Origin: Nocardioides houyundeii
GTDB lineage: Bacteria; Actinomycetota; Actinomycetes; Propionibacteriales; Nocardioidaceae
Assembly (NCBI RefSeq): GCF_002865585.1
Contig: NZ_CP025581.1
Coordinates: 2,232,001 to 2,296,000 of the forward strand
Reading direction: 5' to 3'
Length of the DNA: 64,000 nt
The notes under the pieces are model-generated. The model was not told the DNA's origin and ran no database searches. It worked only from the letters and a program-made list of their open reading frames with translations. Shown piece after piece: positions 38,601-55,019 of the stretch. How positions within the stretch are numbered: the stretch's first letter is position 1; each line of letters begins with the position of its first letter. The translations under genes were made by a program, and so were the position numbers.

Positions 38601-38902
38601 GTGTTCCTCCAGGTTGCTCACGTGCGCGGTTGCGCGGGCTGGTTCGTTCAGGTCTGTCCGTCACGCTATCCCGCACCGCCCAGGCACCGTGGGGATGCGA
38701 GCCGGTCGGGCAGGACAGTCGGCCACAGGGCGCGAACGGTAGCAGCCGGAGCCCACTGCGAGGGGTGAGGCGGAGAACCAGCGGGGGGAACACCGAGGGT
38801 GGTCCGGATGGATGCACGTGAGACGACTACCTAAATTAAGGTACGAAGTTGGTACCGTCCTGCCGCGGCCGACTGCCGGCCGCCATCATCGGAGGTGGCA
38901 CG
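38601..38902. promoter_or_regulatory. Divergent promoter region between terD and PAS-GGDEF-EAL gene, with palindrome
   Basis: 302 bp with no gene. At 38828-38843 the 16-mer TACCTAAATTAAGGTA is palindromic except at two symmetric positions, about 60 bp before the proposed TTG start at 38903, followed by GGTAC…GGTACC. This AT-rich site in GC-rich DNA is a likely operator or promoter for the c-di-GMP gene. Confidence 0.5.
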
Positions 38903-41416
38903 TTGTCCGCTGACCCCGACAGTCCGCAAGCATCCTCCCCTGCAGTGGACGCGACTGCCGGACCGGACGAGCCGCGGATCCTCGAGGCGCTCGACTCCTC
39001 CCCCGACGCGCTCATCGTCCTCGACCCGCGCGGCTGCGTGACGTGGGCCAGCTCGGCGACGCTCCCCGTTCTCGGCTGGCGCCCCGACGAGCTCGTGGGG
39101 CAGCCGATCACCGTCGTCGCCCTGGACGAGGACGTCGAACAACAGCAGCACCTCCTCGCGGAGGCGGCGCGCACCGGCAGGCCGACCAGCTACTCGGCTC
39201 GCCGGCGCCGCCGCGACGGCGGAGTGGTCGAGGTCTCGGTGTCGCTGGCACCGGTACGAGCAGCCCGGTCCACCAGCTTCGCGGGCATCTGCGCCACGGT
39301 CCGTCCCGCGGGTCAGCGGTCGGAACGGCTGCAGGCCCGGCTGGCAGAGCAGGAGCACCTCAACCTGACACTGAGCCGGCGTTCCTCCGACGTCGCACTG
39401 ATCACCAAGCCGGACACCGAGATCACCTACGTCTCACCGCCGGTCTACGACGTGCTGGGGTTCAGCCCCGATCAGCTCCTCGGCTCCAAGAGCATGGGCC
39501 TGGTCCATCGGGACGACCGGGTCGAGGTGCAGGCGTTCGTGACCCGGGTGGCCTCGTCACCGGACTCCGTGGAGCGCAAGACCTTCAGGATCCACAACGC
39601 TCGGGGCGAGTGGCGCTGGATCGAGCTGACGCTGACCAACTGCATCGATCTCCCCGGTGTCGAAGGGCTGGTCGCCAACCTCCGGGACGTGTCGAACGAG
39701 TTCGCGGCACGCGCGGCGCTCGTCGCCTCCGAGCAGCGGTACCGCGCCACCGTGCACCGGTATCGGGCCATCGTGGAGACCGCCCAGGAGGGCGTGCTCG
39801 TGCTGGACCAGGAGACCCGGGTCCTCTTCGCCAACAAGAAGGCGTCCGAGCTGCTCGGCCACCCCCCGGGCGACATAGACCGCCGCAAGCTCACGGGACT
39901 GCTCGACGGCACGACGGCCGAGCACCTGCGAGGCAGGACCGCCTCTCACTCCGCGCGTGGGCACGAACGCTACGAGATCAGTTACGCCCATCCCGACGGC
40001 CGCAGTCGCGTCTTCGAAATCTCCTCCTCGCCCATCTCACTGGGCGTGGATGCCGGCACCGGATCCCTGGCCATGATCTCCGACGTCACTGAGGCGCGGC
40101 GCGTCCAGGCGGAGCTGCAGCACCGCGCCCTGCACGATCCGCTCACCGGGCTGCCGAACCGCGCCCTGTTCCACGACCGTCTCTCGATGGCGCTGTGTCG
40201 ACAGGGTCGGGACCCGGACCGCCCGGGGGTCGCCCTGCTCTCCATCGATCTGGACGGCTTCCGCCTCGTCAACCACGTCCACGGGCACGAGGTCAGCGAC
40301 GCGATCCTGGTCGAGGTGGCGGAGCGCTTGCGCGGCGTCGCCGAGGAGGCCGACACGGTCGCTCGGCTCGAGGGTGACCACTTCGTCGTCGTGGTGGAGG
40401 GGGCAGGCACGGAGGCGGCTGCGGCGCTCGGGGACCGCATGCGCCGGGTCCTGCTCGAACCGGTACGGACCGCGGACTCGGTGGTCTACGTGGACGCCAG
40501 CGTGGGGGTCGCTGTGACCCCTCCTCAGTCCCCCGCCTCCCTGCTCAGGTCCGCGAACACCGCTCTGCACCGAGCCAAGACGCAGGGCCGCGGCCGAGTG
40601 CTGCTCTACGACGCGTCCTGGGACGACGAGCTCGACCCAGCGCGCGAGCTGCAGGTGGCGAACGCGCTGCGTGAGGCGCTCAACTCCGGGGAGATCGGAC
40701 TGGGCTACCAGCCCGTCGTCGACCTGGCCGACGGCCGAGTAGTGGCCGTCGAGGCCCTGCTGCGGTGGGAGCACCCCGACCTGGGCGCCGTGCCGCCGAC
40801 CGAGGTGGTCGCCACCGCTCACTCCATCGGCTGGGCCGAACGTCTCAACCGGTACGTGCTGCGTCGCGCGTGCACGGAGATGGCACAGCTGCGCGAACGT
40901 GGCGTGGCGGCCGACCTCACCCTGGCGGTGAACCTAAGTCCCCAGAGCTTCGACAGCGGTCTGCCGCGAGCGGTGGAGGAGGCGAGCCGGCTCAGCGGGT
41001 GGCCGCTCAATCGGCTGAGCCTGGAGATCACCGAGGGCGTCCTGATGCGGGATCCCGGCGCGGCTGCGGTGGTCCTCGCGCGGTTGCGCGAGCTGGACGT
41101 CTCGGTGGCCATCGACGACTTCGGGACCGGCTTCAGCTCCCTGGCCTACCTCCAGCGGCTACCCGTGGGCGCCCTCAAGGTGGACCGCCGTTTCGTGGAG
41201 CACGTGCCCGCCGATCCGGACGCCTGCGCCATCGCCCGGGCGATCATCGACCTGGCCCGCGCCCTGTCGCTGGACACGGTGGCCGAAGGCATCGAGACCC
41301 AGGACCAGGCCGACTACATGCGGGCGCTGGGGTGCCGGTGGGGCCAGGGGTACCTGTGGAGCCCGGCCGTGCCGCCGACGCAGCTCGCGGCGCTGTTGCT
41401 GGCCAGGCCCACCTGA
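38903..41416 (+). CDS. PAS-PAS-PAS-GGDEF-EAL protein, probable c-di-GMP phosphodiesterase
   Basis: 837 residues from TTG 38903 (GGAGG seven bases upstream; a GTG at 38849 has none). Three PAS modules lie at about 25-135, 155-270 and 285-400. The GGDEF domain (about 415-565) keeps 'HDPLTGLPNRALFHDRLSMA' but its active site reads 'RLEGDHFVVV', so cyclase activity is unlikely. The EAL domain (about 585-830) is intact: 'EALLRWEHPDLG', 'LAVNLSPQSF', 'LEITEGVLM', 'AIDDFGTGFSSLAYLQ', 'LKVDRRFV' and 'AEGIETQDQADY'. It should hydrolyse c-di-GMP, tuned by PAS signals; no membrane segment is seen. Convergent with the riboswitch-controlled minus-strand genes. Confidence 0.92.
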   Translation: MSADPDSPQASSPAVDATAGPDEPRILEALDSSPDALIVLDPRGCVTWASSATLPVLGWRPDELVGQPITVVALDEDVEQQQHLLAEAARTGRPTSYSARRRRRDGGVVEVSVSLAPVRAARSTSFAGICATVRPAGQRSERLQARLAEQEHLNLTLSRRSSDVALITKPDTEITYVSPPVYDVLGFSPDQLLGSKSMGLVHRDDRVEVQAFVTRVASSPDSVERKTFRIHNARGEWRWIELTLTNCIDLPGVEGLVANLRDVSNEFAARAALVASEQRYRATVHRYRAIVETAQEGVLVLDQETRVLFANKKASELLGHPPGDIDRRKLTGLLDGTTAEHLRGRTASHSARGHERYEISYAHPDGRSRVFEISSSPISLGVDAGTGSLAMISDVTEARRVQAELQHRALHDPLTGLPNRALFHDRLSMALCRQGRDPDRPGVALLSIDLDGFRLVNHVHGHEVSDAILVEVAERLRGVAEEADTVARLEGDHFVVVVEGAGTEAAAALGDRMRRVLLEPVRTADSVVYVDASVGVAVTPPQSPASLLRSANTALHRAKTQGRGRVLLYDASWDDELDPARELQVANALREALNSGEIGLGYQPVVDLADGRVVAVEALLRWEHPDLGAVPPTEVVATAHSIGWAERLNRYVLRRACTEMAQLRERGVAADLTLAVNLSPQSFDSGLPRAVEEASRLSGWPLNRLSLEITEGVLMRDPGAAAVVLARLRELDVSVAIDDFGTGFSSLAYLQRLPVGALKVDRRFVEHVPADPDACAIARAIIDLARALSLDTVAEGIETQDQADYMRALGCRWGQGYLWSPAVPPTQLAALLLARPT

Positions 41417-41446
41417 CCCTCACCGGGAGTCACTGAGTGCTGGAGC

Positions 41447-41626
41447 TCAGCCCTGCTGCGGGAATCGGCCCTGCCGCACGCCCGAGTGCCCCTTGCCGTC
41501 GTGGCTGCCCCGCCCGGCACCGTACGTCGTCTCGTCGGCGTCGGTGTGCGCGTTCATCTTCATGTTCGTGGGGAAGGTCGCGAGGCCGCCAGAGGCAAGG
41601 ATCGCGGTGATGCGCAAGGTCTCCAT
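41447..41626 (-). CDS. 59-residue ORF behind c-di-GMP riboswitch, possible truncated surface-protein copy
   Basis: From ATG 41626 the frame begins 'METLRITAILASGGLATFPT', close to the 'MKTLRITGTLAIAGLTLAAL' signal peptide of the WxL-like protein at 46602-47171, then becomes a Gly/His/Asp-rich tail ('YGAGRGSHDGKGHSG'). The leader DNA is duplicated too. It may be a small secreted peptide or the debris of a duplicated WxL gene. No independent family match is recognised. Confidence 0.45.
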   Translation of the reverse strand: METLRITAILASGGLATFPTNMKMNAHTDADETTYGAGRGSHDGKGHSGVRQGRFPQQG

Positions 41627-41699
41627 GAGTGGACCAACTCTCTGTGGTGGGTCCCCACCCACAGCTGCGTACACGTGTGAACACCTGCACCGCCTCGAC

Positions 41700-41787
41700 G
41701 AGGACCAATTCGGTAACCCGGCTGACCCTGGTGGGCCCCGTGGCTTTGCGTCCCCGACTCACATCGGGTTTGCCTTTTCGCTCTGAC
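41700..41787 (-). ncRNA. Cyclic-di-GMP-I (GEMM-I) riboswitch, copy 1
   Basis: On the minus strand the conserved core reads GGCAAACC, a P1b stem CCGAT/GTCGG capped by a GUGA (GNRA) tetraloop, GGGACGCAAAGCC, and finally GGGTTACCGA, the diagnostic GEMM-I consensus. It begins about 160 bases upstream of the ATG at 41626. It is identical to copy 2 except at two of 88 positions. It should sense c-di-GMP made or degraded by neighbouring GGDEF/EAL proteins. Confidence 0.9.
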
Positions 41788-41848
41788 CGCAGGCACCGCC
41801 TGAGGTCAGGATCTGAGGGCGGCCTACCGCCTCCTCGTCTCGATCGTC

Positions 41849-41862
41849 AGGTTGCCACACCC
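41849..41862 (-). promoter_or_regulatory. Conserved block upstream of riboswitch copy 1 (candidate promoter element)
   Basis: The 14-mer AGGTTGCCACACCC (plus strand) recurs with one change at 47409-47422 and lies 62 bases from the riboswitch here and 61 there. The conserved spacing suggests part of a shared promoter; flanking bases also align. Confidence 0.45.
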
Positions 41863-41874
41863 GGCCGGGCGGTG

Positions 41875-42903
41875 TCAGGCGAATTCGGACGATTTTGCCA
41901 AGCCGTGCCGGAGCAGCTCAGCGGCGTTGGCGTCGACCGGCACCAGCGCCGCGCAGAGCTCTTCCAGGCCCGCGACCAGCGCGGCCCGAGGAACCCTGCG
42001 GTGCCCCAGCAGCTCTCCCAGCCACACCACGAGGTCGACCAGCACGTTGTCGTCCTCCACCAGTCCGGCTGCGGCGACGAACCTGACAATGAACTCCAGG
42101 TCCTCCAGGGTCCGGGCCCGCTGCTCCCCGTCGTAGCGGGCCACCTCCGGCAGGGACCGCTCCAGGCTCTCGGTGGCGACCCGGGCCAGCTCGGCTGCCC
42201 GGGACTGGAGCAGGGAGTACGCCGGGGGAACGGGAGCCGCCACGGCCTGCTCGACGGGAGGGGCCATCGTCCAGGCCTCGAGGGTCTTGGCCGCCGCGGC
42301 GGCGTCGGGTGCCCACGCGTCAGCACCGAGCATGGCAGCCCGTCGTCCGTCCGTGCCGAGGGCGCGTCCCCCGGCGAGGACCGGGATGCGCCGCTCGTGG
42401 GCGACTTCTGCGATTCGTCGTACTCCCATGAAGAACAGCGGCAGGCTGCAGGAGACGGCCACCGCGGTCGCAGGTCGCCGGTCGAGGTAGGCGGCGACGT
42501 GGGCGGCGGGGGTCGAGGCGCCCAGGCAGCTGACGTCCCAGCCCCGGCCACGCAGCACCTCGGCGACGACCTGCGCCGGCAGCGAGTGCCAGTCGCCCTC
42601 GGCACACACCACCAGGACGTGTCCGCGGTCTCCCGGGACGGGGGGCCCGCCGGCGAACATGGCGTCGAGGGCTCGCTGGGTCTGGCCGCTGACCAGGTGC
42701 TCGTCGGCCACCGACCACTCGTTGCGATGCCATCGCTCCCCCAGCTCGCGCTGGGCGGCGCACAACAGGTCGACGATCACCGACTCCGGGGGTACCCCCT
42801 GTCCGAGCAGCCGGGTGACGACTGCGCGGGCACCAGCGATCTCGCCGTTGCGCGCCAGCTCCAGATAGCGGCTGATCTCCTCGTGGGCGACGGCCGCCGT
42901 CAC
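41875..42903 (-). CDS. B12-binding (CarH-type photosensor-like) protein
   Basis: 342 residues from GTG 42903, overlapping the cyclase stop as GTGA. The four-helix module (1-85) contains 'GERWHRNEWSVADEHLVSG': Trp58, nine residues, then Glu68-His69, the Wx9EH motif of CarH-type AdoCbl light sensors. The Rossmann B12-binding domain follows with 'AEGDWHSLPAQVVAEVLRGR' (Asp104, axial His106) and 'CLGASTPAAHVAAYL'. The last 130 residues are helical and of unknown fold; no MerR DNA-binding domain is present. It probably senses B12 or light and acts by protein contact, perhaps on the adjacent diguanylate cyclase or kinase. Confidence 0.82.
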   Translation of the reverse strand: MTAAVAHEEISRYLELARNGEIAGARAVVTRLLGQGVPPESVIVDLLCAAQRELGERWHRNEWSVADEHLVSGQTQRALDAMFAGGPPVPGDRGHVLVVCAEGDWHSLPAQVVAEVLRGRGWDVSCLGASTPAAHVAAYLDRRPATAVAVSCSLPLFFMGVRRIAEVAHERRIPVLAGGRALGTDGRRAAMLGADAWAPDAAAAAKTLEAWTMAPPVEQAVAAPVPPAYSLLQSRAAELARVATESLERSLPEVARYDGEQRARTLEDLEFIVRFVAAAGLVEDDNVLVDLVVWLGELLGHRRVPRAALVAGLEELCAALVPVDANAAELLRHGLAKSSEFA

Positions 42904-43667
42904 GGGTAGTCCCCCGGCTCCGCCGGGCACCAGCGGTCTCGGCCGGCGCCCTTCGCGCGGTACAGCGCCCGGTCTGCTGCGATCACCGCGTCCTCTGCCC
43001 GGTCGAGCACGAGAGCGGTCCCGGCCGAGAACGTGACCAGGTCCTGCCGCGTCGCCTCCCACGTCTTCCGCAGCCGCTCCAGGAACGGGTCGGGCTCCGG
43101 ACCGCGGAGCACCACGAGGAACTCCTCGCCTCCGGTGCGCGCGACGTAGTCGGCGGTTCGCGCGGTCTCGGACAGCGCGCGCGCGAAGTCCCTCAGCACC
43201 CGGTCACCGGCGTGGTGACCCGAGGAGTCGTTGACCAGCTTGAAGTGGTCCAGGTCCACCACGACCACCGAGCCCTCGTGGACACGGGGCAGCAGGCGGG
43301 TCACCATGCGTCGGTTCCACAGACCGGTGAGCGGGTCGCGCGTGGCCTCGTCGGCGAACCGCTGCGAGCGGTCGAGCAGCTCCAGGGCACGGTGGGCATC
43401 CCTGACGAACAGTGGGAGCTGCCGCTCCAGCGCCTCCCGGGCACTGCTGCCGGGGGCCGCCGTCGGCAGCACGGGAGTTCCGGTGCCGAGTGCCAGGTCC
43501 ACCGGGATCGCGTCGACCGGCGTCGCGCCGGCCGGCAGCAGGGAGCCGCCGAGGTCTCGGACCAGGTCGCGAGCGGTGGCCAGCACCGCCTCGACGTCCG
43601 CCGCCCACAGCAGGCGTCGAGTCGCCTCCAGGAGCAACGATGAGTCGCTCGCGTCCGGGTCCACCAC
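42900..43667 (-). CDS. Diguanylate cyclase (GGDEF domain)
   Basis: 255 residues from GTG 43667, AGGA eight bases upstream. An N-terminal helical/GAF-like sensor (1-95) leads into 'TRDPLTGLWNRRMVTRLL' and the active site 'ARTGGEEFLVVL' (G-G-E-E-F). An inhibitory I-site R-x-x-D ('RTAD') sits five residues before it, so product inhibition is expected. It makes c-di-GMP from two GTP. Its start is 140 bp after the kinase stop and its stop overlaps the B12 protein. It can feed the ligand for the riboswitch at the head of its own operon. Confidence 0.92.
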   Translation of the reverse strand: MVDPDASDSSLLLEATRRLLWAADVEAVLATARDLVRDLGGSLLPAGATPVDAIPVDLALGTGTPVLPTAAPGSSAREALERQLPLFVRDAHRALELLDRSQRFADEATRDPLTGLWNRRMVTRLLPRVHEGSVVVVDLDHFKLVNDSSGHHAGDRVLRDFARALSETARTADYVARTGGEEFLVVLRGPEPDPFLERLRKTWEATRQDLVTFSAGTALVLDRAEDAVIAADRALYRAKGAGRDRWCPAEPGDYP

Positions 43668-43806
43668 GTGTCCGTCCTGCTTTCCGCGGGCAGATCGCCG
43701 CGGGATCCTGTGCGATTGGGATGCTCCAGGTTCGCTTTCGATGCTGGATCATCCCACGAGTACGTCGATCTCGCAGTGGTTGGCGAGAACCGAGCCGACC
43801 GTGCTG

Positions 43807-45048
43807 TCACGGCGCCAGGGGCAGGCGGACGGTGAACACTGCGCCCTGGGGATCGTTCTCGGACACCAGGATCCGTCCACCGTGCTCCGTCACCACCGCG
43901 GCCACGATGCTGAGCCCCAGACCCGGTCCCGGGACGGCCGCCTCGTGGACGGCGGCGCCTCGGAAGAACGGCGTGAACAGATGAGGCACCTCGGAATGCG
44001 GCACGCCCGGCCCGGTGTCGGAGACCTCGATCGTCGCCTCTTCCTCCGACTGCGCGACGCGACAGCAGACGCGACCACCGGGAGGAGTGAACTTCACGGC
44101 GTTGTCCACCAGCTGGTGCACGAGCAGCTCCAGCTGGGATGCCTCACCACGCACCAGGGTGGGCTGCTCCGGCCAGCTGAACTCCGGGACCACCGTGGGC
44201 TGCCCCTGTCCTGCGTCAAGGTCGAGGGTGGTGGCACGCACCGCCGCCACCACGTCACGCAGGTCGAGCGGATCGGCAGAGTGCGGGTGCACGGAGCTGC
44301 TGTCCGAGAGGGTGACCAGGCTCTCCGCCAGCTGTTGGAGGCGGGCCACGTTGCGCCTGATGGCAGTGGCGAACCTGCCCCTGCGCTCCGCGTCGTCGAT
44401 GCCGGTCTCGAGCAGCTCGACGTAGCCGAGGATGCTCGTCAGCGGGGTCCTCAGCTCGTGGCTGGCGGTGGTCACGAAGTCGTTCCGCAGCCGGTCCAGC
44501 TCCGCCTGCCGACGTGCCGCCTCCTGCTCGCTGTGCAGCGCCTGAGCCAGCAGGCTGCTGGTCCGGCGCTCCTCTGTCACGTCGACACCCTGCGCCCAGT
44601 AGCCGCGGACCTCCCCGGCGGTGCCCAGCATGGGCTGGACGTCCACCGCCATCACCCGGGGGACGCCGTCGACGCCGGTCATGTTCCACTCGCAGCTCGT
44701 GCCACTTGGTCTCTGGGAAGCCTCGCCCTCGCCGTCGCTGGCCTGCTCAGTCCCGTCTGAACGCCCCGGCCGCCGACGGTCCAGAGCACCGAGCCGCAGC
44801 TCGGGCCCGCGCCGGCGCTCGAACCGGGCGGGGTCGACGAGGAACAGCTCCGGACCGCAGGGGACCCCCGCAGCGGCGGAGCGCTGCTCGAGCTGGTCCC
44901 GGTCGAGGATCTCCCTGGGAAAGGCCCGTCCCTCCAGAGCAGACGTGGGACGTCCGACCAGCGCCTCGACCGCGGCGTTGCACCACGTCACCAGCCCCTG
45001 GGCGTCGGTGGAGACGGCCAGGACGCTGGCTGGTCCAAGCGGCGTCAT
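43807..45048 (-). CDS. PAS-containing sensor histidine kinase
   Basis: 413 residues from ATG 45048, which overlaps the preceding stop as TGATG (GTG 45051 also possible). A PAS fold at about 5-45 and 120-165 carries a low-complexity insert. HisKA 'FVTTASHELRTPLTSILGYV' has the phosphoacceptor His, and the HATPase part has 'LVDNAVKFTPPGGRV' (N box), 'VSDTGPGVPHSE' (G1) and 'GPGLGLSIVAAVVTEHGGRI' (G2). No membrane helix is present, so it is cytoplasmic. No response regulator is visible in the window. Confidence 0.9.
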   Translation of the reverse strand: MTPLGPASVLAVSTDAQGLVTWCNAAVEALVGRPTSALEGRAFPREILDRDQLEQRSAAAGVPCGPELFLVDPARFERRRGPELRLGALDRRRPGRSDGTEQASDGEGEASQRPSGTSCEWNMTGVDGVPRVMAVDVQPMLGTAGEVRGYWAQGVDVTEERRTSSLLAQALHSEQEAARRQAELDRLRNDFVTTASHELRTPLTSILGYVELLETGIDDAERRGRFATAIRRNVARLQQLAESLVTLSDSSSVHPHSADPLDLRDVVAAVRATTLDLDAGQGQPTVVPEFSWPEQPTLVRGEASQLELLVHQLVDNAVKFTPPGGRVCCRVAQSEEEATIEVSDTGPGVPHSEVPHLFTPFFRGAAVHEAAVPGPGLGLSIVAAVVTEHGGRILVSENDPQGAVFTVRLPLAP

Positions 45049-45581
45049 CACAGCACCGAGTGAGTGATGGTGCCGCGGTAGACCCCCGCGGGCATGTTCG
45101 CGCTCACGGCAACATGGATGGTCGGGTTCCAGGTGGCGGTGTTGTTGCCCGTGATAGCCGTCGCCGTGACCACAGGGGACACCCCGGTCAGGTCCACCGG
45201 GTCGTTGGCCGTGTACGTGGCGGTCCCGGACCGGTCGATCGGTCCGACCGAGTAGCCGATGCTGCCCGCCCCGATCGACGGTCCGGCGGTCTGGGTGAAG
45301 GCCGTGGAGATGGCGGTGGCGGCCCAGCCCGAGCCTTCCGGCGCGCTCCGGGTGTCGATGACCTGCACCTGTCCTAGCTGGCCCGAGATGGTCACCGGTC
45401 CCACCAGGCTGGAGGCGGTGCCCAGGTTCTCCACCTCGCTCGGGGCACTGATGGAGAGCCCACCGCCCTCCAGGGTCACGCCCACGCTGCTTTCCGCGGT
45501 CTCGTCGGCAGCCGCCGGGTCGGCGACGCCGAGAGCTGTGACCAGGCAGGTCAGTGGGAGTAGCAGGTGGCGGCGTGGCAT
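45048..45581 (-). CDS. Secreted WxL-like surface protein 2
   Basis: 177 residues from ATG 45581. A signal peptide 'RRHLLLPLTCLVTALGVADPAAA' (cleavage near A-A-A-D) is followed by a beta-rich domain: 'VGVTLEGGGLSISAPSEVEN', 'GQLGQVQVIDTRSAPEGSGW', 'ATAISTAFTQTAG' and the terminal 'ANMPAGVYRGTITHSVL'. This matches the WxL-type cell-wall-associated domain (Gly-Trp…T strand; Y-x-G-T-I-T-x-S end), as does the paralogue at 46602. Such proteins bind peptidoglycan and work with DUF916 proteins. 10 bp after the DUF916 gene. Confidence 0.75.
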   Translation of the reverse strand: MPRRHLLLPLTCLVTALGVADPAAADETAESSVGVTLEGGGLSISAPSEVENLGTASSLVGPVTISGQLGQVQVIDTRSAPEGSGWAATAISTAFTQTAGPSIGAGSIGYSVGPIDRSGTATYTANDPVDLTGVSPVVTATAITGNNTATWNPTIHVAVSANMPAGVYRGTITHSVL

Positions 45582-45591
45582 GCCGTGCCTT

Positions 45592-46587
45592 TCATCGATG
45601 GGAGTGCAACCGGCGCGTGCGGACGAACCGCACGCCCAGCCCGAAGGCCGCAAGGACTACCAGGCCGCCGCCCAGCCACCACCACCCGGGGACACCGTCG
45701 TCGGAGAGCGGCACGGTCTCACCGGCCCCCGACACCGGGAAGGTGATGCTGGCCTGCTCGGTCTTGGTGAGCAGTCCGCTGGTCACCGAGAGCTCGGCCG
45801 CCCAGGGTCCGTTGGGCAGCTGCTCGTCGAGCTCGACCGCGATGGGCGCGGTCTGGCCCAGGCCCAGCGTGGTGCCCAGACGCACCGGGAACGGCCCGGC
45901 GGACAGGCCACCGGGGCCGTCGCTGAGCGTGAGCGTGCCGCGCAGGTCCAGGGCCCGGCCGCCGGTGTTGCGGACCACCGCGGTGACTGTGGGCAGCCCG
46001 GCGTCGGTGCGCTGCGCGGTCAGGGACTCCAGGTCGAAGTCCGCGGCGGGCTCGCCCCCCTCGCCCACCGAGAGGTAGACGCGGATCCCGACTCGGCTGA
46101 CCTGGGTGATGCCTTCGGCCTCTCCCGCGGCGGTCTGCGCCCAGAGCACGGCGTACTGCTCCCCCGGGGCCGCATCGGAGGGGACGGCGATCGTCACGTC
46201 GACCACCTCCTTCTGCGCCTCGGCGAGCGTGAGGCGAGGAGCGCTGACCGAGGTCCAGGTGGTGAGCTCGTTCGGGGTGTCGGCCTCGAGCCCGACGAAG
46301 GAGCCGTCCTTGATGACCGCTGCGCCGGGGTAGACGGCGATGTCCGTGGGCGCGCCGGTGTTGTTGGAGACCTCGATGCGCCGCTCGATGGTGGTGCCCG
46401 GACTCACGTGGTCGATGACGTAGACCAGCGCTCGTGGGTTGTCGCGGAGCTCGACGGGGGCGTCGACCAGGCGGATGCCGATCCCGCTCGGGTCGTTGGG
46501 GGCCGCGTTCGCGGGGATGCCGAAGGCACCGGCGGCCGGGAGCAGGGTCCCGGCCACCAGTGCCATCAGGGTGAGCAGTCGATGCAT
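45592..46587 (-). CDS. DUF916-type WxL-interacting membrane-anchored protein
   Basis: 331 residues from ATG 46587. A signal peptide (1-28, 'MALVAGTLLPAAGAFGIPAN') is followed by Ig-like beta domains: 'RALVYVIDHVSPGTTIERRI' and 'VSNNTGAPTDIAVYPGAAVI' (typical of DUF916), then 'TAVVRNTGGRALDLRGTLTL'. A C-terminal helix 'GWWWLGGGLVVLAAFGLGVR' and basic tail 'FVRTRRLHSHR' anchor it. DUF916 proteins bind WxL proteins at the cell surface; the two WxL-like genes on each side make this the core of a surface complex. Confidence 0.85.
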   Translation of the reverse strand: MHRLLTLMALVAGTLLPAAGAFGIPANAAPNDPSGIGIRLVDAPVELRDNPRALVYVIDHVSPGTTIERRIEVSNNTGAPTDIAVYPGAAVIKDGSFVGLEADTPNELTTWTSVSAPRLTLAEAQKEVVDVTIAVPSDAAPGEQYAVLWAQTAAGEAEGITQVSRVGIRVYLSVGEGGEPAADFDLESLTAQRTDAGLPTVTAVVRNTGGRALDLRGTLTLSDGPGGLSAGPFPVRLGTTLGLGQTAPIAVELDEQLPNGPWAAELSVTSGLLTKTEQASITFPVSGAGETVPLSDDGVPGWWWLGGGLVVLAAFGLGVRFVRTRRLHSHR

Positions 46588-46601
46588 GTGGTGTCGAGGT
46601 C

Positions 46602-47171
46602 TCAGGAGACCGAGGTGGTGACGGTGCCGGTGTAGGTGTCCGCCAGCGCGTGGGGCGGAAGCTCAACGGTCAGCGTCGGGGTGAACCTGGCGGTGTTATT
46701 GCCTACCACGTTCGTGCCGGTGACCACGGGGGCCCCGGTCATGATGCTGGGCCCCGGGGCAGCGACAGAGGTCGGTGCGAGGTCGACCCTGCCCGTCTTC
46801 TTTACGTCTTCTGGGTAGTAGAAGACGTTGGTGGAGTTCGTGTCTTCGGCGTCGTTGCCGTCGTCGAACGTCGAGGAGGCGGCCGTGACAACCCAAGTCC
46901 CCGTCGCGCCTCGCTCGTCGGAGATCAAGACCTCGCCGAGCGAGCCGGAGACCGACCCAACGCCCGACAGCCAGGTCCCAGGCTCACCATCCTCTTTGTC
47001 AGGAGCTGCCAGAGTCGCCGCAGGGTCCACGTCAACGGTGAGCGAGCCGCCTGCGAGGGCGAAAGTGACAGCGGTCGTCCCTTCGTCTTCGGCCATGGCC
47101 GGGCTTGCGGGCAGCGCCGCGAGCGTCAACCCTGCAATGGCGAGGGTCCCTGTGATGCGCAGAGTCTTCAT
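46602..47171 (-). CDS. Secreted WxL-like surface protein 1, riboswitch-controlled
   Basis: 189 residues from ATG 47171. Signal peptide 'MKTLRITGTLAIAGLTLAAL' (cleavage after A-M-A near residue 27), then 'TAVTFALAGGSLTVDVDPAA', 'GSLGEVLISDERGATGTWVV' and a C-terminal 'HALADTYTGTVTTSVS', the same beta-domain plan as the paralogue at 45048. It is the first gene of the operon, 90 bases downstream of GEMM-I copy 2, so c-di-GMP should control its expression and that of the whole surface complex. Confidence 0.78.
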   Translation of the reverse strand: MKTLRITGTLAIAGLTLAALPASPAMAEDEGTTAVTFALAGGSLTVDVDPAATLAAPDKEDGEPGTWLSGVGSVSGSLGEVLISDERGATGTWVVTAASSTFDDGNDAEDTNSTNVFYYPEDVKKTGRVDLAPTSVAAPGPSIMTGAPVVTGTNVVGNNTARFTPTLTVELPPHALADTYTGTVTTSVS

Positions 47172-47260
47172 GAGATGTGCTGACCAGCTTCCTGTGGTTG
47201 CGGTCCTCGCGTCCACAGCAGCTGCTTCGTGCAGGTGAGAACCACCCGCACGGGATCGAC

Positions 47261-47348
47261 GAGGACCAGTTCGGTAACCCGGCTGACCCTGGTGGGCCCC
47301 GTGGCTTTGCGTCCCCGACTCACATCGGGTTTGCCGTTTCGCTCTGAC
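47261..47348 (-). ncRNA. Cyclic-di-GMP-I (GEMM-I) riboswitch, copy 2
   Basis: Same conserved core as copy 1 (GGCAAACC, GUGA tetraloop stem, GGGACGCAAAGCC, GGGTTACCGA), differing from it at only two of 88 bases. It lies upstream of the WxL-like gene whose start is at 47171 and so leads the operon that contains a diguanylate cyclase. Whether it switches on or off with ligand cannot be decided by eye; an obvious U-tract terminator is not seen downstream. Confidence 0.92.
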
Positions 47349-47408
47349 ACCGGCCGCAGCCGGTGCTCAGGATCTGGATCGCGGTGACCGCTTCCCGTCT
47401 CGAGCGCT

Positions 47409-47422
47409 AGGGTGCCACACCC
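47409..47422 (-). promoter_or_regulatory. Conserved block upstream of riboswitch copy 2 (candidate promoter element)
   Basis: AGGGTGCCACACCC (plus strand), one base different from the block upstream of copy 1 and at the same distance from the riboswitch. The block itself is an inverted repeat (GGGTG/CACCC overlap) and may be a promoter or regulator site. Confidence 0.45.
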
Positions 47423-47559
47423 TGCCCCGGGCTGTCCGGCGTTTCGGCAATTCGCCCGCCCGCCAGGACTCGGCCCTGTGGCGGCCCCTCGCGGACAGCC
47501 GCCCGCTGCTGGCGCACCCCGACTCCAGAAGGCTCGGAGCCGGTCACCTAGGCTTCTTG

Positions 47560-47576
47560 TTGCACACTATTCGCAA
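47560..47576 (+). promoter_or_regulatory. Possible Nur-type (nickel) operator upstream of ABC importer
   Basis: TTGCAC, five bases, TCGCAA ends 18 bases before the ATG at 47595. The known actinobacterial Nur box is tTGCaa-N5-ttGCAA, which this matches at 10 of 12 positions. Position over the promoter/5' UTR would fit repression of the importer. Tentative. Confidence 0.4.
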
Positions 47577-47594
47577 TAAGGCGCTGGAGGACTC

Positions 47595-49211
47595 ATGCGA
47601 CGCAGCAGGCTCGCGCACCGGTTCACGGACACGGGCGGGGCGCTGCTGCTGGTGACCGCGCTCGCCGCGTGCGGCGGCACGAGCACCGACGCGGACGCAC
47701 ACTCCGCCCCCAGCGAGCTGCGGCTGGCGGTGGGCGGTGAGTCCGACGAGGGCTACGACCCGACGCTGGGCTGGGGCCGCTACGGCTCGCCCCTGTTCCA
47801 GTCCACGCTGCTGGTGCGAGAGCCCGACCTCGGGGTCGGCACGGACCTGGCCACCTCTTACCAGGTCAGCGACGACGGACTGACCTGGACCGTGGACCTC
47901 CGGACCGACGCGGTGTTCAGCGACGGCGAGCCGGTCACGCCCGCCGACGTGGCCTACACGTTCAACACCGCCGCCACCCGCGGCGGGCTCACCGACGTGA
48001 CCGCCCTCGAGCAGGCCGTCGCGATCGACGAGGACACCGTGGAGCTGCGCCTGTCCGAGCCTCGCAGCACCTTCGTGAACCGCCTGATCAGCCTGGGCAT
48101 CGTCCCTGAGCACGCGCACGGCGACGGCTACGCCCGCCGCCCTGTCGGCTCCGGGCCGTTCAAGCTGGTGGACTGGCAGCAGGGCCAGCAGCTGGTCGTG
48201 GAGCGCAACGAGGACTACTACGGCGAGAAGCCCGAGTTCGAGCGGATCGTGTTCGTCTTCACCGACGAGGACGCCAGCCTCGCCGCCGCCCGCGCCGGAG
48301 AGGTCGAGATGGCCGCCGTCCCCTCGGCCCTGGCCACCCAGGACATCGCCGGGATGAGGCTGCACGCCATCACCTCCCTGGACAACCGCGGCATCTCCTT
48401 CCCCACCGTCCCCGCGGCCGGTGGCACCAGCCCGGTCGGCGCTCCGATCGGCAACGACGTGACCGCCGACCGGGCGATCAGGCGCGCGGTGAACACCGCC
48501 GTGGACCGGCAGCGACTGGTCGACGGTGTGCTCGAGGGCTTCGGCTCCCCCGCCGCCGGCCCGGTGGACGCCGCTCCCTGGTTCGAGCCGGGCAGCCGGG
48601 TCGCCGACGCCGACACCGACGCCGCGGCCCAGCTCCTCGAGCGAGCCGGATGGAGCGACACCGATGACGACGGAGTCCGCGAGAAGGCCGGCATGGATGC
48701 CTCGTTCACCCTGCTCTACCCCGCCGACGACTCGCTGCGTCAGGGCTTGGCCCTGAGCGTTGTCGACATGGTCGCGCCTGCTGGCATCGAGATCCGCACC
48801 GAGGGGGTCGGCTGGGACGAGATCTACCAGCGCCAGCACACCGACGCGGTGCTCTTCGGGTGGGGAAGTCACGACCCGACCGAGATGTTCAACCTCTACC
48901 ACTCCTCCCTGGCCGGGACGGAGTCGTTCAACCCCGGCTACTACTCCGGCCCCACGGTCGATCGGCACCTGGACGCCGCGATGGCGGCCACCGACCCGGA
49001 CGAGGCCACCCGACAGTGGCGGGCCGCCCAGCTCGACGAGGACGACCGCGGCTTCAGCGCTCCCGGCGACGCCGCCTGGGCCTGGCTGGTCAACCTGGAG
49101 CACACCTACTTCGTCGACCAGTGCCTGGACCTCGGTCCGGCGTACGTCGAGCCGCACGGCCACGGATGGCCGGTCACGGCCGGCATCACGTCCTGGCGGT
49201 GGGACTGCTGA
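47595..49211 (+). CDS. ABC importer substrate-binding lipoprotein (SBP_bac_5; nickel/oligopeptide type)
   Basis: 538 residues; GGAGGACTC precedes the ATG. The signal 'GGALLLVTALAACGG' has a lipobox (L-A-A-C), so it is a lipoprotein. 'DDGLTWTVDLRTDAVFSDGE', 'PVTPADVAYTFNTA', 'RPVGSGPFKLVDWQQGQQLV' and 'ADRAIRRAVNTAVDRQRLVD' are the standard marks of the DppA/NikA/OppA family. First gene of a five-gene importer. Substrate could be nickel or nickel/cobalt chelates, peptides or other; the adjacent cobalamin genes and possible Nur box favour a metal, as inference only. Confidence 0.9.
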   Translation: MRRSRLAHRFTDTGGALLLVTALAACGGTSTDADAHSAPSELRLAVGGESDEGYDPTLGWGRYGSPLFQSTLLVREPDLGVGTDLATSYQVSDDGLTWTVDLRTDAVFSDGEPVTPADVAYTFNTAATRGGLTDVTALEQAVAIDEDTVELRLSEPRSTFVNRLISLGIVPEHAHGDGYARRPVGSGPFKLVDWQQGQQLVVERNEDYYGEKPEFERIVFVFTDEDASLAAARAGEVEMAAVPSALATQDIAGMRLHAITSLDNRGISFPTVPAAGGTSPVGAPIGNDVTADRAIRRAVNTAVDRQRLVDGVLEGFGSPAAGPVDAAPWFEPGSRVADADTDAAAQLLERAGWSDTDDDGVREKAGMDASFTLLYPADDSLRQGLALSVVDMVAPAGIEIRTEGVGWDEIYQRQHTDAVLFGWGSHDPTEMFNLYHSSLAGTESFNPGYYSGPTVDRHLDAAMAATDPDEATRQWRAAQLDEDDRGFSAPGDAAWAWLVNLEHTYFVDQCLDLGPAYVEPHGHGWPVTAGITSWRWDC

Positions 49212-50200
49212 CCAGGACCCGACGACACCTCCCCCGGCTGGCAGCCCGGGCGCTGCGGCTGGGCAGCCTGCTGGCCGCGGTCGCGGTCGGCTCCTTCCTG
49301 CTGGTCGCCAACTCCCCCGTCGACCCGGTCCAGGCGTACGTCGGTGCCGACACCGCGGCGATCGGGAGCGAGCAGCGCGCCCAGATTGCCGAGCGCTGGG
49401 GGCTCGACGACCCGCCGCTGGAACGGTTCACAGCCTGGGCCGGCAACATCCTCACCGGGGACCTCGGCACCTCGCAGGCCTTCGGGCAGCCGGTGACCAC
49501 CGTGATCGCCGACCGGTTCGCCGCCAGTCTCTCCCTGATGGCGCTGGCCTGGCTGTTCTCCGGGATCCTCGGTTTCGCCCTGGGGCTGGTCGCCGCGGCG
49601 ATGCGGGGCCGGCTCGTGGACCGGGTCCTGACGTGGTTCGCCTACACCCTGGCCTCGGCGCCCACCTTCTGGGTGGGGCTGCTGCTGCTCTACGTCTTCT
49701 CGGTCTCCTTGCAGTGGACACCGGTCTGCTGCGCGGCCCCCCTGGGGAGCCTGCCCGGTGAGGCCTCGCTCCTGGATCGGCTGCACCATCTGGCACTGCC
49801 CGCCCTGACCCTCAGCGTGGTCGCGATCTCTCCCGTGCTGCTGCACACCCGGCAGGCGGCCGTCGAGGTGCTGGACAGCGACCACGTGGCCTTCGCCCGC
49901 TCACAGGGCGAGCGGATGCCGGGGCTGGTGCTGCACCGGGTGGCGCGCAATGCGGCCGGTCCGGCCCTGATGCTCCAGTTCGCCTCCGTGGGCGAGCTCT
50001 TCGGCGGCTCGGTGCTGGCCGAGCAGGTCTTCACCTATCCGGGCCTGGGCGAGGCCACCACCACCGCGGCACTGCGTCAGGACGTGCCGCTGCTGCTGGG
50101 CATCGCGCTCTTCACGGCCCTGGTGGTGTTCGCCGGCAACGCGCTGGGCGACGTCGCGCATCGCCTCGCCGTACCGCATGTCCGCGAGGTCCCCGCATGA
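49199..50200 (+). CDS. ABC importer permease 1 (DppB/NikB-like)
   Basis: 333 residues from GTG 49199, overlapping the SBP stop by 13 bases. Six helices; 'GSFLLVANSPVDPVQAYVG' and 'IAERWGLDDPPLERFTAWAG' are the DppB-type N-terminal periplasmic region, and 'SVGELFGGSVLAEQVFTYPG' with 'LGEATTTAALRQDVPLLLGI' is the C-terminal permease signature. The stop overlaps the next start as ATGA. Confidence 0.92.
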   Translation: MGLLTRTRRHLPRLAARALRLGSLLAAVAVGSFLLVANSPVDPVQAYVGADTAAIGSEQRAQIAERWGLDDPPLERFTAWAGNILTGDLGTSQAFGQPVTTVIADRFAASLSLMALAWLFSGILGFALGLVAAAMRGRLVDRVLTWFAYTLASAPTFWVGLLLLYVFSVSLQWTPVCCAAPLGSLPGEASLLDRLHHLALPALTLSVVAISPVLLHTRQAAVEVLDSDHVAFARSQGERMPGLVLHRVARNAAGPALMLQFASVGELFGGSVLAEQVFTYPGLGEATTTAALRQDVPLLLGIALFTALVVFAGNALGDVAHRLAVPHVREVPA

Positions 50201-51060
50201 GCCTGGCCGACCCCGCCCTCCCCGTGCGCCGCAGGCCCTCGTGGCGGGACCGGCGTACCCGGACCCTGGCCACCCTGGCGCTCGCCGTGCTGCTGGCCGT
50301 GGCCCTGGTGGTGGCCGGAACCCTGGCCGCGGCGCCTGCGCAGGTCACCGACCTGGACCAGCGCAACCTCGCCCCCGGCGTGGACCATCCCTTCGGCACC
50401 GACCGCTACGGCCGTGACCTGCTCCTGCGCACCCTGGTGGGGCTGCGCCTGAGCCTCCTCGTCGGCGCCGTGGCGGCACTGATGTCGGGCGGCATCGCCC
50501 TGGCCCTGGCCTTGTTCGCTGCCGTCGGCGGCCGGTCGGCCACCGCCGTGGTCAACTGGCTGGTCGACCTGTTCCTCGCCCTGCCCCACCTGGTGCTGCT
50601 CATCCTGCTGGCCTTCTCCCTGGGCGGAGGCACCAGCGCGGTGGTCCTGGCCATCGGCCTGACGCACTGGCCCCGTCTGACCCGGGTGCTCGTCTCGGTC
50701 GGGCGCGAGACCACCTCGGCCGAGTACGTCGCGATCTCCCGCGCGCTGGGCCACGGCCCGGTGCACATTGCCCGGCGGCACCTCGCCCCGCACCTGGTCC
50801 CGCACCTGAGCGTGGGGGTGGTCTTGATGTTCCCGCACGCGATCCTGCACGAGGCGGCCCTCTCCTTCCTCGGTCTCGGCGTGGACCCCGGCCTGCCGGC
50901 CGTTGGCGTGCTGCTGGCCGAGTCCATGCGCTACCTCTCCGTCGGCCACTGGTGGCTTGCTGTCCTCCCCGGGCTCGGCCTCCTGCTGCTCGTGCGACTG
51001 GTCGACCGGATCGGCGAGAACCTCCGTCTCCTGCTCGACCCGAGGAGTGCCCAGCTGTGA
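50197..51060 (+). CDS. ABC importer permease 2 (DppC/NikC-like)
   Basis: 287 residues from ATG 50197. N-terminal helix at 27-47, then 'HPFGTDRYGRDLLLRTLVG' (the conserved FGTDxxGRD motif of DppC proteins), and the EAA-type loop 'EYVAISRALGHGPVHIARRH' that couples to the ATPase. Six helices in total. Joined by overlaps to both neighbours. Confidence 0.93.
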   Translation: MSLADPALPVRRRPSWRDRRTRTLATLALAVLLAVALVVAGTLAAAPAQVTDLDQRNLAPGVDHPFGTDRYGRDLLLRTLVGLRLSLLVGAVAALMSGGIALALALFAAVGGRSATAVVNWLVDLFLALPHLVLLILLAFSLGGGTSAVVLAIGLTHWPRLTRVLVSVGRETTSAEYVAISRALGHGPVHIARRHLAPHLVPHLSVGVVLMFPHAILHEAALSFLGLGVDPGLPAVGVLLAESMRYLSVGHWWLAVLPGLGLLLLVRLVDRIGENLRLLLDPRSAQL

Positions 51061-51884
51061 CCAGCTCACTGCCGCACCAGCTGCTCGAGGTGCACGACCT
51101 CTCGGTGCACTTCGAGCAGTACGACCGGGGACTGCGCCGACGCACGGTGCCGGCCGTGGAGCAGATGTCGCTGTCGGTGCGCGAGCGCGAGGTGGTCGCC
51201 CTGGTCGGGGCGAGCGGCGCCGGCAAGAGCATCCTGGGGCACGCGGTCCTGGGCCTGCTCCCGGCCAACGCCCGGGAGCGCGGGGAGATCAGGTGGCGCG
51301 GGGCCCCGGTCGGGGCCGCGCAACGCCGCCGGCTGGCCGGCACCCAGACCGCACTGCTTCCGCAGTCGGTGTCCCACCTCGACCCCACGGCCACGGTCGG
51401 GGCACAGGCCCGCCGCGCCGCCCGGCTGGCGGGCCACGGACGACGCACGGCTCGGGCCCGGGCTGCGGAGGCGTTGCGCGCACAGGGACTGGCGGAGTCG
51501 GTGCTGCGACTGCACCCGTACGAGCTGTCCGGCGGGATGGCGCGCCGGGTCCTGACCGCCCTGGCACTCATGGGGGACCCAGCACTGGTCATCGCCGACG
51601 AGCCCACCCCCGGACTGGCACCCGAGAGCGTGGTCGCGGTGCTCGACCGGCTCCGGCGCATCGCGGACGCGGGCAGCGGCGTGCTGCTGATCACCCACGA
51701 GCTCGGCCCGGCCCTGCACGTCGCCGACCGGGTGGTCGTGGCCCGCCGGGGCCGGACCCTGGAGGAGGCGCCCGTCGGCGCCTTCGCCGGCAGCGGTCAG
51801 GCGCTGGAGCACGCCTACAGCCGAGCCCTGTGGCGGGCGCTCCCCCAGAACGGGTTCCAGCTGCCGAGGGCTGACGAGTGCTGA
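51057..51884 (+). CDS. ABC importer ATPase 1 (DppD/NikD-like)
   Basis: 275 residues from GTG 51057 (overlap GTGA). Walker A 'LVGASGAGKSILGHAV' (about 52-67), Q loop 'TALLPQSVSHLDPTAT', signature 'YELSGGMARRVLTALALMGD' and Walker B 'PALVIADEPTPGLAP', with the His switch in 'LLITHELGPAL'. The D-D-F-like C-terminal Cys/Pro cap for oligopeptide ATPases is short. Confidence 0.93.
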   Translation: MTSSLPHQLLEVHDLSVHFEQYDRGLRRRTVPAVEQMSLSVREREVVALVGASGAGKSILGHAVLGLLPANARERGEIRWRGAPVGAAQRRRLAGTQTALLPQSVSHLDPTATVGAQARRAARLAGHGRRTARARAAEALRAQGLAESVLRLHPYELSGGMARRVLTALALMGDPALVIADEPTPGLAPESVVAVLDRLRRIADAGSGVLLITHELGPALHVADRVVVARRGRTLEEAPVGAFAGSGQALEHAYSRALWRALPQNGFQLPRADEC

Positions 51885-52525
51885 GCGGAGAGGGGCTGTG
51901 GGCGCGTCACGGACGCACCCATCCGTGGGTCCTGGAGGACGTGACCATCTCCGTCGCGCCGGGCGAGGTGGTCGGCCTCTGGGGCGCCTCCGGTCGCGGC
52001 AAGACCACTCTGGCCATGGTGCTCGCCGGGTTCCGTGCACCGAACCGGGGCCGGGTCGTCCTGGACGGCGTGCCGCTGCGTCCCACGCGTGGGCCACGAC
52101 CGGTGCAGCTGCTGCTCCAGCATCCCGAGCGCGCCATGAACCCGAGGTGGCGGGTGCGCGACATCCTCGCCGAGGCGTGCCCCGGCGCACCCGACGCCGT
52201 GCCCGAGGCAGACGGCCTCGTCGACCCGGCGTGGCTGGACCGCCGGCCGCACGAGATCAGCGGCGGGGAGCTGCAACGGGTCAACTTGGCGCGCGCCCTG
52301 GCGGCGGACCCCGCCTACCTGCTGGCCGACGAGGTCTCCAGCAGCCTCGATGCCATCACCCAGGCGCTGCTGTGGCGCCGCCTGGCCGACCGGGTGCACA
52401 CCCACGGAGTCGGGGTGCTGGCGATCTCGCACGACCAGAACCTGCTCGGCCGGGTCGCGGACCGGGTGGTGGTGCTCGAGGACGCTACCGCCGAGTCTGA
52501 CGGCCGGCCCCCGGATCGCACGTGA
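51878..52525 (+). CDS. ABC importer ATPase 2 (DppF/NikE-like)
   Basis: 215 residues from GTG 51878, overlapping ATPase 1 by seven bases. Walker A 'LWGASGRGKTTLAMVL', 'LLLQHPERAMNPRWRV' (Q loop with N-P as in DppF), 'HEISGGELQRVNLARALAAD' signature, Walker B 'PAYLLADEVSSSLDA' and 'AISHDQNLLGRV'. Shorter than most DppF proteins (about 260-330) because the C-terminal oligopeptide cap is missing, as in NikE-like ATPases. Confidence 0.92.
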   Translation: MLSGEGLWARHGRTHPWVLEDVTISVAPGEVVGLWGASGRGKTTLAMVLAGFRAPNRGRVVLDGVPLRPTRGPRPVQLLLQHPERAMNPRWRVRDILAEACPGAPDAVPEADGLVDPAWLDRRPHEISGGELQRVNLARALAADPAYLLADEVSSSLDAITQALLWRRLADRVHTHGVGVLAISHDQNLLGRVADRVVVLEDATAESDGRPPDRT

Positions 52526-53204: not shown

Positions 53205-53243
53205 CAGGCACCGGTCCGGCCACCTAGGCTGGGCCGGTGCCTG
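53205..53243 (+). promoter_or_regulatory. Hairpin covering the cobT start codon
   Basis: CAGGCACCGG (53205-53214) pairs perfectly with CCGGTGCCTG (53234-53243), with further pairing (GGCC/GGCT region) inside the 19-base loop. The 3' arm contains the GTG start codon of cobT at 53237. It could be the terminator of the DJ-1 gene or could hide the cobT start from ribosomes. Confidence 0.6.
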
Positions 53244-54271: not shown

Positions 54272-55019
54272 CGCCTGGCGGCTGGCCGTCGGCACCCTCA
54301 CCGCCCTGAAGGTCCGTCCGCCGTCGTCGGTGGCCGACCCGGTGCCCGGTCGAGCCGTCCTGCTCGCCCCGCTGGCGGTGCTGCCCCTGGGCGCCGCGGT
54401 GGTCCTGATAGGGCTCCTGGGACAGGCACTCGACCTGCCGCACCTCGCCACCGCGTTCGCCGCCCTCGGCGTCCTTGCCCTGGGCACCAGGGTGCTGCAC
54501 TGGGACGGCCTCTCCGACACCGTCGACGGGCTGACTGCCTCCTACGACCCGGAGCGGTCCCTGGCGGTGATGCGCTCGGGCACCTCGGGGCCCGCGGGCG
54601 TGGTGGCGACCGTGGTGGTGGCAGGCCTTCAGGTCTCCGGCCTGGCAGCGCTGCTGGACACCCCCGGTGGCGCCTGCCTCGCGGGGCTCGCGGTCTGCGC
54701 GTCGCGGGCCTCGCTGGCCGTGGCGTGCCTGCACGGTGTCCCGGCCGCACGCCGCGAAGGGCTGGGCAACCCGCTTGCCGGCCGGGTCCCGCTCCGGTGG
54801 GCCGTGCTGACCTGGGCCGCGATGGCGGTGGTGCTCACCCTCGCCGTGATCGTCGTCGACGTCTCCTGGTGGCGCGGCCTGCTGGCCGCCCTGGCAGCCC
54901 TGGCTGTCGTCTCGGCGCTGGTGCGGCACGCGGTACGCCGCCTCGGCGGGGTCACCGGCGACGTCTTCGGCGCCTGCGTCGAGCTGTCGCTGGCGGCCCT
55001 GCTGGTTTTCCTCGCCTGA
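54264..55019 (+). CDS. cobS: Adenosylcobinamide-GDP ribazoletransferase (cobalamin synthase)
   Basis: 251 residues from GTG 54264. Polytopic membrane protein; 'RVLHWDGLSDTVDGLTASYD' and 'ERSLAVMRSGTSGPAGVVAT' are the acidic and phosphate-contact motifs of CobS, with five to six helices after. It joins alpha-ribazole to AdoCbi-GDP in the cytoplasmic membrane. Coupled to cobT by overlap, convergent with cobU. Confidence 0.96.
   Translation: MGDAWRLAVGTLTALKVRPPSSVADPVPGRAVLLAPLAVLPLGAAVVLIGLLGQALDLPHLATAFAALGVLALGTRVLHWDGLSDTVDGLTASYDPERSLAVMRSGTSGPAGVVATVVVAGLQVSGLAALLDTPGGACLAGLAVCASRASLAVACLHGVPAARREGLGNPLAGRVPLRWAVLTWAAMAVVLTLAVIVVDVSWWRGLLAALAALAVVSALVRHAVRRLGGVTGDVFGACVELSLAALLVFLA

Follow-up and report, generated by a model that had tools for sequence, protein, structure and literature searches.

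A c-di-GMP riboswitch-led surface module clustered with a cyclase, a photocobilin relative and an EAL gene in Nocardioides houyundeii

Introduction

Many networks of cyclic di-GMP (c-di-GMP) comprise numerous cyclases and phosphodiesterases, and for that reason cause and effect are hard to assign in them. A 64,000-nucleotide stretch of the actinobacterium Nocardioides houyundeii (contig NZ_CP025581.1, positions 2,232,001 to 2,296,000; hereafter the window, whose own numbering is used throughout) raises the question of whether a source of c-di-GMP can lie under the control of a receptor for its own product within a single locus. The initial annotation of the window had proposed such an arrangement, with two nearly identical c-di-GMP-I (GEMM-I) riboswitches, the second of which (copy 2) leads an operon for WxL-like surface proteins, a DUF916 anchor, a kinase and a diguanylate cyclase.

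Copy 2 is found directly before the surface module, and the only intact GGDEF domain of the genome, a photocobilin relative and the only EAL domain lie in the same cluster. On balance, and with modest confidence, the locus at 38849-47345 is read as a self-contained c-di-GMP circuit that would include a light input, an output through copy 2, feedback, and clearance by the EAL enzyme. The photocobilin relative, the one-locus inventory, a 59-codon open reading frame (ORF) and the retained aptamer of the other riboswitch (copy 1) go beyond the initial annotation.

Enzymes and RNA receptors in one locus

The genome searched is complete, in one contig of 3,840,802 bases, and is rated 100% complete. 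Family searches identified two GGDEF domains, that of the cyclase and a degenerate one in the EAL protein, and a single EAL domain, in the gene at 38849..41416; no PilZ or HD_5 domain was found by these searches, which did not cover other receptor and cyclase types. A scan of the complete genome found no third c-di-GMP-I aptamer, and the intact cyclase, the EAL gene and both aptamers all fall within 38849-47345 (8.5 kb). The low number of GGDEF domains is not odd, since many genomes of the genus hold one or two (any GGDEF in 121 of 209). The notable part is that the enzymes and both RNA receptors are together in one locus.

Both window aptamers were called by cmscan with Rfam gathering cut-offs and score far above the 35 bits set for RF01051 (Table 1), which bears out the two riboswitches of the initial annotation. 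Their spacing, given there as about 5.5 kb, was measured at 5.56 kb. The near-identity of the copies also stands, and only the exact count of two differences in 88 bases depends on the register: three mismatches in 88 are found between 41701-41788 and 47262-47349, and one in 76 over the aptamer. The GGC core and the segments GACGCAAAGCCACGGG and CCGAA were found in both copies, and the core guanine is presumably a c-di-GMP contact. The best model for both window aptamers is RF01051, and for the aptamers of the relatives L033, L108, L111, L113, L116 and L117 it is RF03167 (c-di-GMP-I-GGC).

Surface proteins led by copy 2

The module after copy 2 encodes two WxL-like proteins with a WxLIP between them. 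The best match for the predicted structure of the WxLIP protein is a solved WxLIP, and the protein has two Ig-like domains and a C-terminal membrane helix. Its PF06030 score of 16.2 bits is under the Pfam threshold of 27.3, and it is therefore not filed as a Pfam member; the proposed DUF916 anchor is upheld by predicted structure and not by the profile. A profile match of the WxLIP to PDB entry 21nr ('TLP-IPT'), made up of four weak repeats of 11 bits each, was dropped.

For the WxL-like proteins, the gene set led by copy 2 is as first described, and the Pfam match and the W-x-L pair are what is missing. Neither protein matched a Pfam family at E values up to 10. The dual Trp-x-Leu motif is absent, with W-V-V and W-A-A at the first site and T-S-V and H-S-V at the second. 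The Asp/Arg residues at W-8/W-6 of the WxL domain are exact in WxL-like protein 1 (SDERGATGTW) and shifted by two in WxL-like protein 2, for whose predicted model no WxL chain was among the matches listed. A WxL-like profile run against PDB sequences gave a single chance match and was set aside. In many genera, an actinobacterial WxL-like family that has no Pfam model in the members tested adjoins WxLIP-like genes (L038-L092), its common ending being T-H-S-V plus one residue.

Kinase, cyclase, light sensor and phosphodiesterase

The kinase, cyclase and B12-binding protein genes follow on the same strand, with short or overlapping junctions from WxL-like protein 1 through the kinase and from the cyclase to the B12 protein. 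The kinase of the initial annotation is recovered with three Pfam families. The cyclase, described there as active-looking, keeps the GGDEF/GGEEF signature (RTADYVARTGGEEF), in its GGEEF form, and the RxxD I-site, and is predicted to be active. The EAL protein is next door as stated, its gene converging on copy 1.

Among proteins of known structure, those most similar to the B12 protein are photocobilins, with E values of 1.4e-76 for 8j2y over residues 24-332 and 7.8e-57 for 8j2w and 8j2x. It combines B12 domains with a C-terminal globin-like region, resembles SasPcob and AbPcob along its length, and carries the light-response motifs GxxW, EH, GxxH and GxxxP as GERW, EH, GDWH and GASTP; its PF00502 score of 20.2 bits is under the cut-off of 22.2. 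These features mark the protein as a photocobilin relative and a likely light sensor. Biliverdin could come from a heme oxygenase, whose gene lies elsewhere in the genome. In the available text of Zhang et al. 2024 (PMC10979010), the apparent turnover of a fused cyclase rose more than 10-fold on illumination, relative to its dark state with bound adenosylcobalamin, and separate photocobilins work on a cyclase in trans.

Further out, cobT (over the NCBIfam cut-off) and a cobS-like gene (under it), both of cobalamin assembly, lie at 53237-55019, 6 kb to the right of copy 2, and are possibly relevant to a B12-dependent sensor. A nickel/peptide-type ABC transporter set of solute-binding protein, permeases and ATPases (47595-52525) is divergent from copy 2.

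Table 1. Features of the locus, in window coordinates.
Feature	Position	Strand	Basis or remark
PAS-PAS-PAS, degenerate GGDEF (EGDHF), EAL phosphodiesterase	38849..41416	+	start codon as listed mechanically
59-codon ORF led by copy 1	41447..41626	-	start resembles WxL-like protein 1
Copy 1 c-di-GMP-I aptamer	41709..41784	-	RF01051, 65.8 bits, E 1.2e-10; about 90 nt past B12 gene stop
Copy 1 upstream block	41789..41889	-	overlaps 3' end of B12 gene
Photocobilin-like, B12-binding predicted light sensor	41875..42903	-	4-nt overlap with cyclase gene
Diguanylate cyclase, GGEEF and RxxD I-site	42900..43667	-	PF00990, 103.5 bits; motifs
PAS histidine kinase	43807..45051	-	PF02518, PF00512, PF00989
WxL-like protein 2, 177 residues	45048..45581	-	relatives adjoin WxLIP genes
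WxLIP (DUF916/DUF3324-like), 331 residues, C-terminal membrane helix	45592..46587	-	structure match
WxL-like protein 1, 189 residues, signal peptide	46602..47171	-	ORF; relatives adjoin WxLIP genes
Copy 2 possible platform helix, 3' arm CGAGGACC	47202..47209	-	immediately before ribosome-binding site
Copy 2 possible platform helix, 5' arm GGTCCTCG	47260..47267	-	pairing analysis
Copy 2 c-di-GMP-I aptamer	47270..47345	-	RF01051, 64.2 bits, E 2.9e-10; leader of surface operon
Copy 2 promoter-side upstream block, putative promoter	47350..47450	-	77/95 aligned positions identical to copy 1

Leader of the surface genes

In six distinct leaders, the segment after the aptamer can pair with a segment that ends 20-31 nt before the start codon. 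The leaders compared were copies 1 and 2 of the window, N. panacis B, Aero200, Aero187 and G574, with Aero205 omitted as a near-copy of Aero200. Against shuffled sequences, the p value of this platform pairing was 0.075 for copy 1, 0.005 for copy 2, 0.199 for N. panacis B, 0.037 for Aero200, 0.025 for Aero187 and 0.099 for G574; the combined p of 1.8e-4 does not come from independent tests, because the leaders are homologous. A search of the minus strand over 41300-47600 gave no terminator-like site, although high-GC terminators can escape detection, and this would make translational control by copy 2 likelier than control by a terminator. A sigma-70 scan found no promoter, a result of little weight in a high-GC genome. 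Folding with the 5' platform arm blocked was tried as a guide to the ON/OFF sign and abandoned, ribosome-site access being inconsistent across the six leaders.

Copy 1 and its possible roles

Copy 1 resembles copy 2 over a stretch that begins about 100 nt before the aptamer and extends into the opening codons of the ORF behind it. Mismatches number 30 of 174 in the flanks (144/174 identical) against one of 76 in the aptamer (75/76 identical; p 1.2e-4). Since the flanks have diverged more than the aptamer, the pattern fits selection on the copy 1 aptamer, with gene conversion as the alternative. Sequence comparison identifies copy 1 as a duplicate of the leader that has kept its aptamer.

Control of a small protein, the 59-codon ORF, is one possible role for copy 1, to be held tentatively. 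The composition of this ORF is coding-like (GC by codon position 0.60, 0.55 and 0.92), leader similarity extends through its start codon, and a relative with 3 of 59 residues changed is annotated in Nocardioides houyundeii. This was the one relative among 5.8 billion proteins, so that conservation is not apparent outside a very close genome, and the idea of a conserved peptide family was rejected; the similarity to WxL-like protein 1 also ends after the first codons. Copy 1 might instead be a relic, left when the leader of copy 2 was partly duplicated and preserved in sequence through gene conversion or recency. Homology limited to the leader and first codons, with the downstream gene gone, fits a relic, but the contrast between flanks and aptamer would need gene conversion restricted to the aptamer, and this origin seems rather doubtful. 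An antisense-acting copy 1 is unlikely; c-di-GMP-dependent transcription would then enter the only EAL gene from its 3' end, the phosphodiesterase would be lowered and positive feedback would result. Between the aptamer end and the EAL stop lie 292 nt, and that strand shows no terminator-like site; the distance is within the 500-nt limit of a survey of antisense-acting riboswitches, the available text of which gives the c-di-GMP family the strongest antisense tendency (152 antisense versus 2,554 sense; PMC9943018). Against this role, the 59-codon ORF intervenes, and the convergent layout is not conserved, because the EAL relative is divergent from the aptamer in two Aeromicrobium loci (L111 and L112).

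Occurrence in other genomes

Many-genome searches were run with stricter filters, at which weak matches are lost. The c-di-GMP-I aptamer was found in one of 58 near relatives, that one being the window's own genome, and in none of the 36 other same-genus genomes of this set; for the family, class and phylum the counts were 13 of 294, 43 of 394 and 155 of 396 genomes, respectively. Given these class and phylum counts and the recurrence of the arrangement described below, the initial claim that WxL/DUF916 complexes under a c-di-GMP riboswitch are unusual in actinobacteria was overstated. What is unusual is the patchiness, none of those 36 other same-genus genomes having the aptamer.

WxLIP was found in four of 215 genus genomes including the window's own, with one other strong match (66% identity) and two weak ones (32%). 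The aptamer stands directly before WxL-like 1, WxLIP and WxL-like 2 in five of the 13 aptamer-bearing family genomes, which are that of the window, N. panacis (L108) and the Aeromicrobium metagenome-assembled genomes (MAGs) RYN_200 (L111), RYN_205 (L112) and RYN_187 (L113). MAG BP_171 has an aptamer before WxL-like and WxLIP genes, and in a looser case from another class (genome G175, locus L034) the aptamer is followed by a small secreted protein and then by a WxLIP-like protein at 28% identity. The first genes after the leaders of G461, G466 and G557 are not WxL or WxLIP relatives, and no WxLIP relative was found in G493, G496, G516 and G614 within the short DNA stretches examined. In a GTDB scan of 55 WxLIP loci, the examined DNA held an aptamer at five (L038, L039, L040, L042 and L051), directly before a WxL-like gene at four of them, and a GGDEF or EAL relative lay in the flank at 11; the three Aeromicrobium MAGs belong to both sets.

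The signalling genes recur in part. A GGDEF gene and a photocobilin relative follow WxL-like 2 in the same direction in L112, and in L110 an aptamer precedes a PAS-GGDEF-EAL gene that is followed by a photocobilin relative, so that aptamer, GGDEF and photocobilin are found together in two genomes. In L110 a cobalamin riboswitch (14124-14310, minus strand) lies roughly 3 kb beyond the photocobilin gene. Two more aptamers precede GGDEF/EAL genes in N. panacis, one scoring under the Rfam cut-off (33.1 bits); the EAL relative of this species (L108:452-2991) is split into three overlapping ORFs, through pseudogene formation or sequencing errors. The unit of aptamer, WxL, WxLIP and WxL is patchy and, because it recurs in N. 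panacis and the three Aeromicrobium MAGs, not unique. Among open-licence papers, a c-di-GMP riboswitch together with WxL was not found in the matches listed, the two papers that mention both WxL and cyclic di-GMP seem, from their titles and opening abstract lines, to be on other subjects, and none joined a c-di-GMP riboswitch, cobalamin and a photoreceptor.

Proposed circuit

In the circuit proposed here, the photocobilin would sense light and B12/bilin status and change the activity of the cyclase. The c-di-GMP made would bind copy 2 and so govern how strongly the surface module is expressed, translation being a likelier level of control than a terminator. With the cyclase-photocobilin pair at least partly on the copy 2 transcript, the signal would feed back on its own source, and the EAL enzyme would clear it. 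Copy 1 probably still senses c-di-GMP, and its target may be the 59-codon ORF, transcription that runs towards the EAL gene, or both. A feedback loop within the one locus is likely; the transcript wiring, the ligand and light responses and the sign of control are inferences. The self-referential loop of the initial annotation is sustained in that the cyclase lies in the same gene string, and it is weakened by the roughly 140 bp before the cyclase gene. The idea is nevertheless stronger than first put, because the cyclase is the only non-degenerate GGDEF and its neighbour the only EAL.

The same gap, between the kinase and cyclase genes, offers space for another promoter. It also suits a different wiring, in which the riboswitch covers the WxL-like/WxLIP genes and the kinase only, the cyclase-photocobilin pair is a separate unit, and feedback passes through the shared c-di-GMP pool. 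L113 has no cyclase gene after WxL-like 2 and has a convergent GGDEF/EAL relative instead, and the N. panacis GGDEF-EAL gene past the surface genes has its own aptamer. Such a split is harder to square with the co-directional cyclase and photocobilin genes of L112, with the aptamer-led GGDEF-EAL and photocobilin pair of L110, and with the lack of a terminator-like site through the string, subject to the limit on high-GC terminators given above; it is a possibility, but not a probable one.

Other observations also weigh against a self-contained, riboswitch-fed circuit. L112 lacks a kinase gene and has about 90 bp of intervening sequence ahead of its cyclase gene, and no aptamer accompanies the surface genes and EAL neighbours of N. 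gansuensis (L041). Platform pairing reaches p < 0.05 singly in just three of the six leaders, copy 2 is the only leader whose whole-platform folding falls clearly below that of shuffles (z -3.0, with six others at -0.45 to -1.65), and folding yields no consistent ON/OFF sign across the six leaders. The genome inventory extends to the searched families, outside which other c-di-GMP receptors or cyclase types would fall, and in the available text of PMC10979010 the effect of one photocobilin lacking biliverdin was reversed. A more ambitious version of the self-contained circuit is quite improbable: the whole c-di-GMP signalling of the organism would be one light-gated loop with two riboswitches, in which the only cyclase is gated by the photocobilin, copy 2 links c-di-GMP to the surface module as well as to the cyclase, and copy 1 directs c-di-GMP-dependent transcription against the only phosphodiesterase gene, production and breakdown of the signal both being set by RNA sensors within 8.5 kb.

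Since a likely light sensor and two near-identical RNA receptors accompany the one intact cyclase and the one EAL enzyme found, single deletions could test local feedback, light input and riboswitch output, and the 8.5-kb stretch offers a compact circuit suited to such testing. The locus also places a photocobilin in a defined genetic setting and adds riboswitch-led loci of actinobacteria to the range of WxLIP-type surface modules.

Comparison with known systems

That c-di-GMP-I RNAs regulate surface genes and also GGDEF/EAL genes is a familiar theme. The window copies pass the c-di-GMP-I (GEMM-I) model RF01051, and close relatives in Aeromicrobium are matched best by its sister RF03167. Compared with c-di-GMP-I riboswitches, the locus differs in having two near-identical copies, one at each end of a single gene string, no terminator-like site, and a platform unmatched to a described one. 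The CmrRST system of Clostridioides difficile reportedly has a c-di-GMP riboswitch with autoregulation; by its listing, the basis of this comparison, it is like the window locus in joining the two within one signalling system and unlike it in being a two-component system.

Copy 1 is like the antisense-acting riboswitches in the available text of PMC9943018 in lying less than 500 nt from a convergent gene and pointing at it, and unlike them in that a short ORF lies between it and the EAL gene; an antisense effect of copy 1 would be hypothetical. In WxL clusters of Bacilli, the available texts of PMC10599100 and PMC9772566 describe two WxL-like proteins accompanied by a single WxLIP as the most frequent layout (98 of 179 clusters). 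The window locus shares this layout, the WxLIP fold and the C-terminal helix; it is different in being actinobacterial and riboswitch-led, and in that both WxL-like proteins are small and lack the dual W-x-L motif. As far as the available text of PMC10979010 goes, the locus also resembles the AbDPcob fusion in the order of cyclase then photocobilin and, with AbDPcob and SasPcob, in its B12-binding, globin-like and light-motif features; unlike the fusion, it has two overlapping genes set in a riboswitch-led gene string. The parts are of known kinds and the combination is a new variant, a recurrent, patchily distributed, riboswitch-led module being joined here to the only intact cyclase, a photocobilin relative and the only EAL gene.

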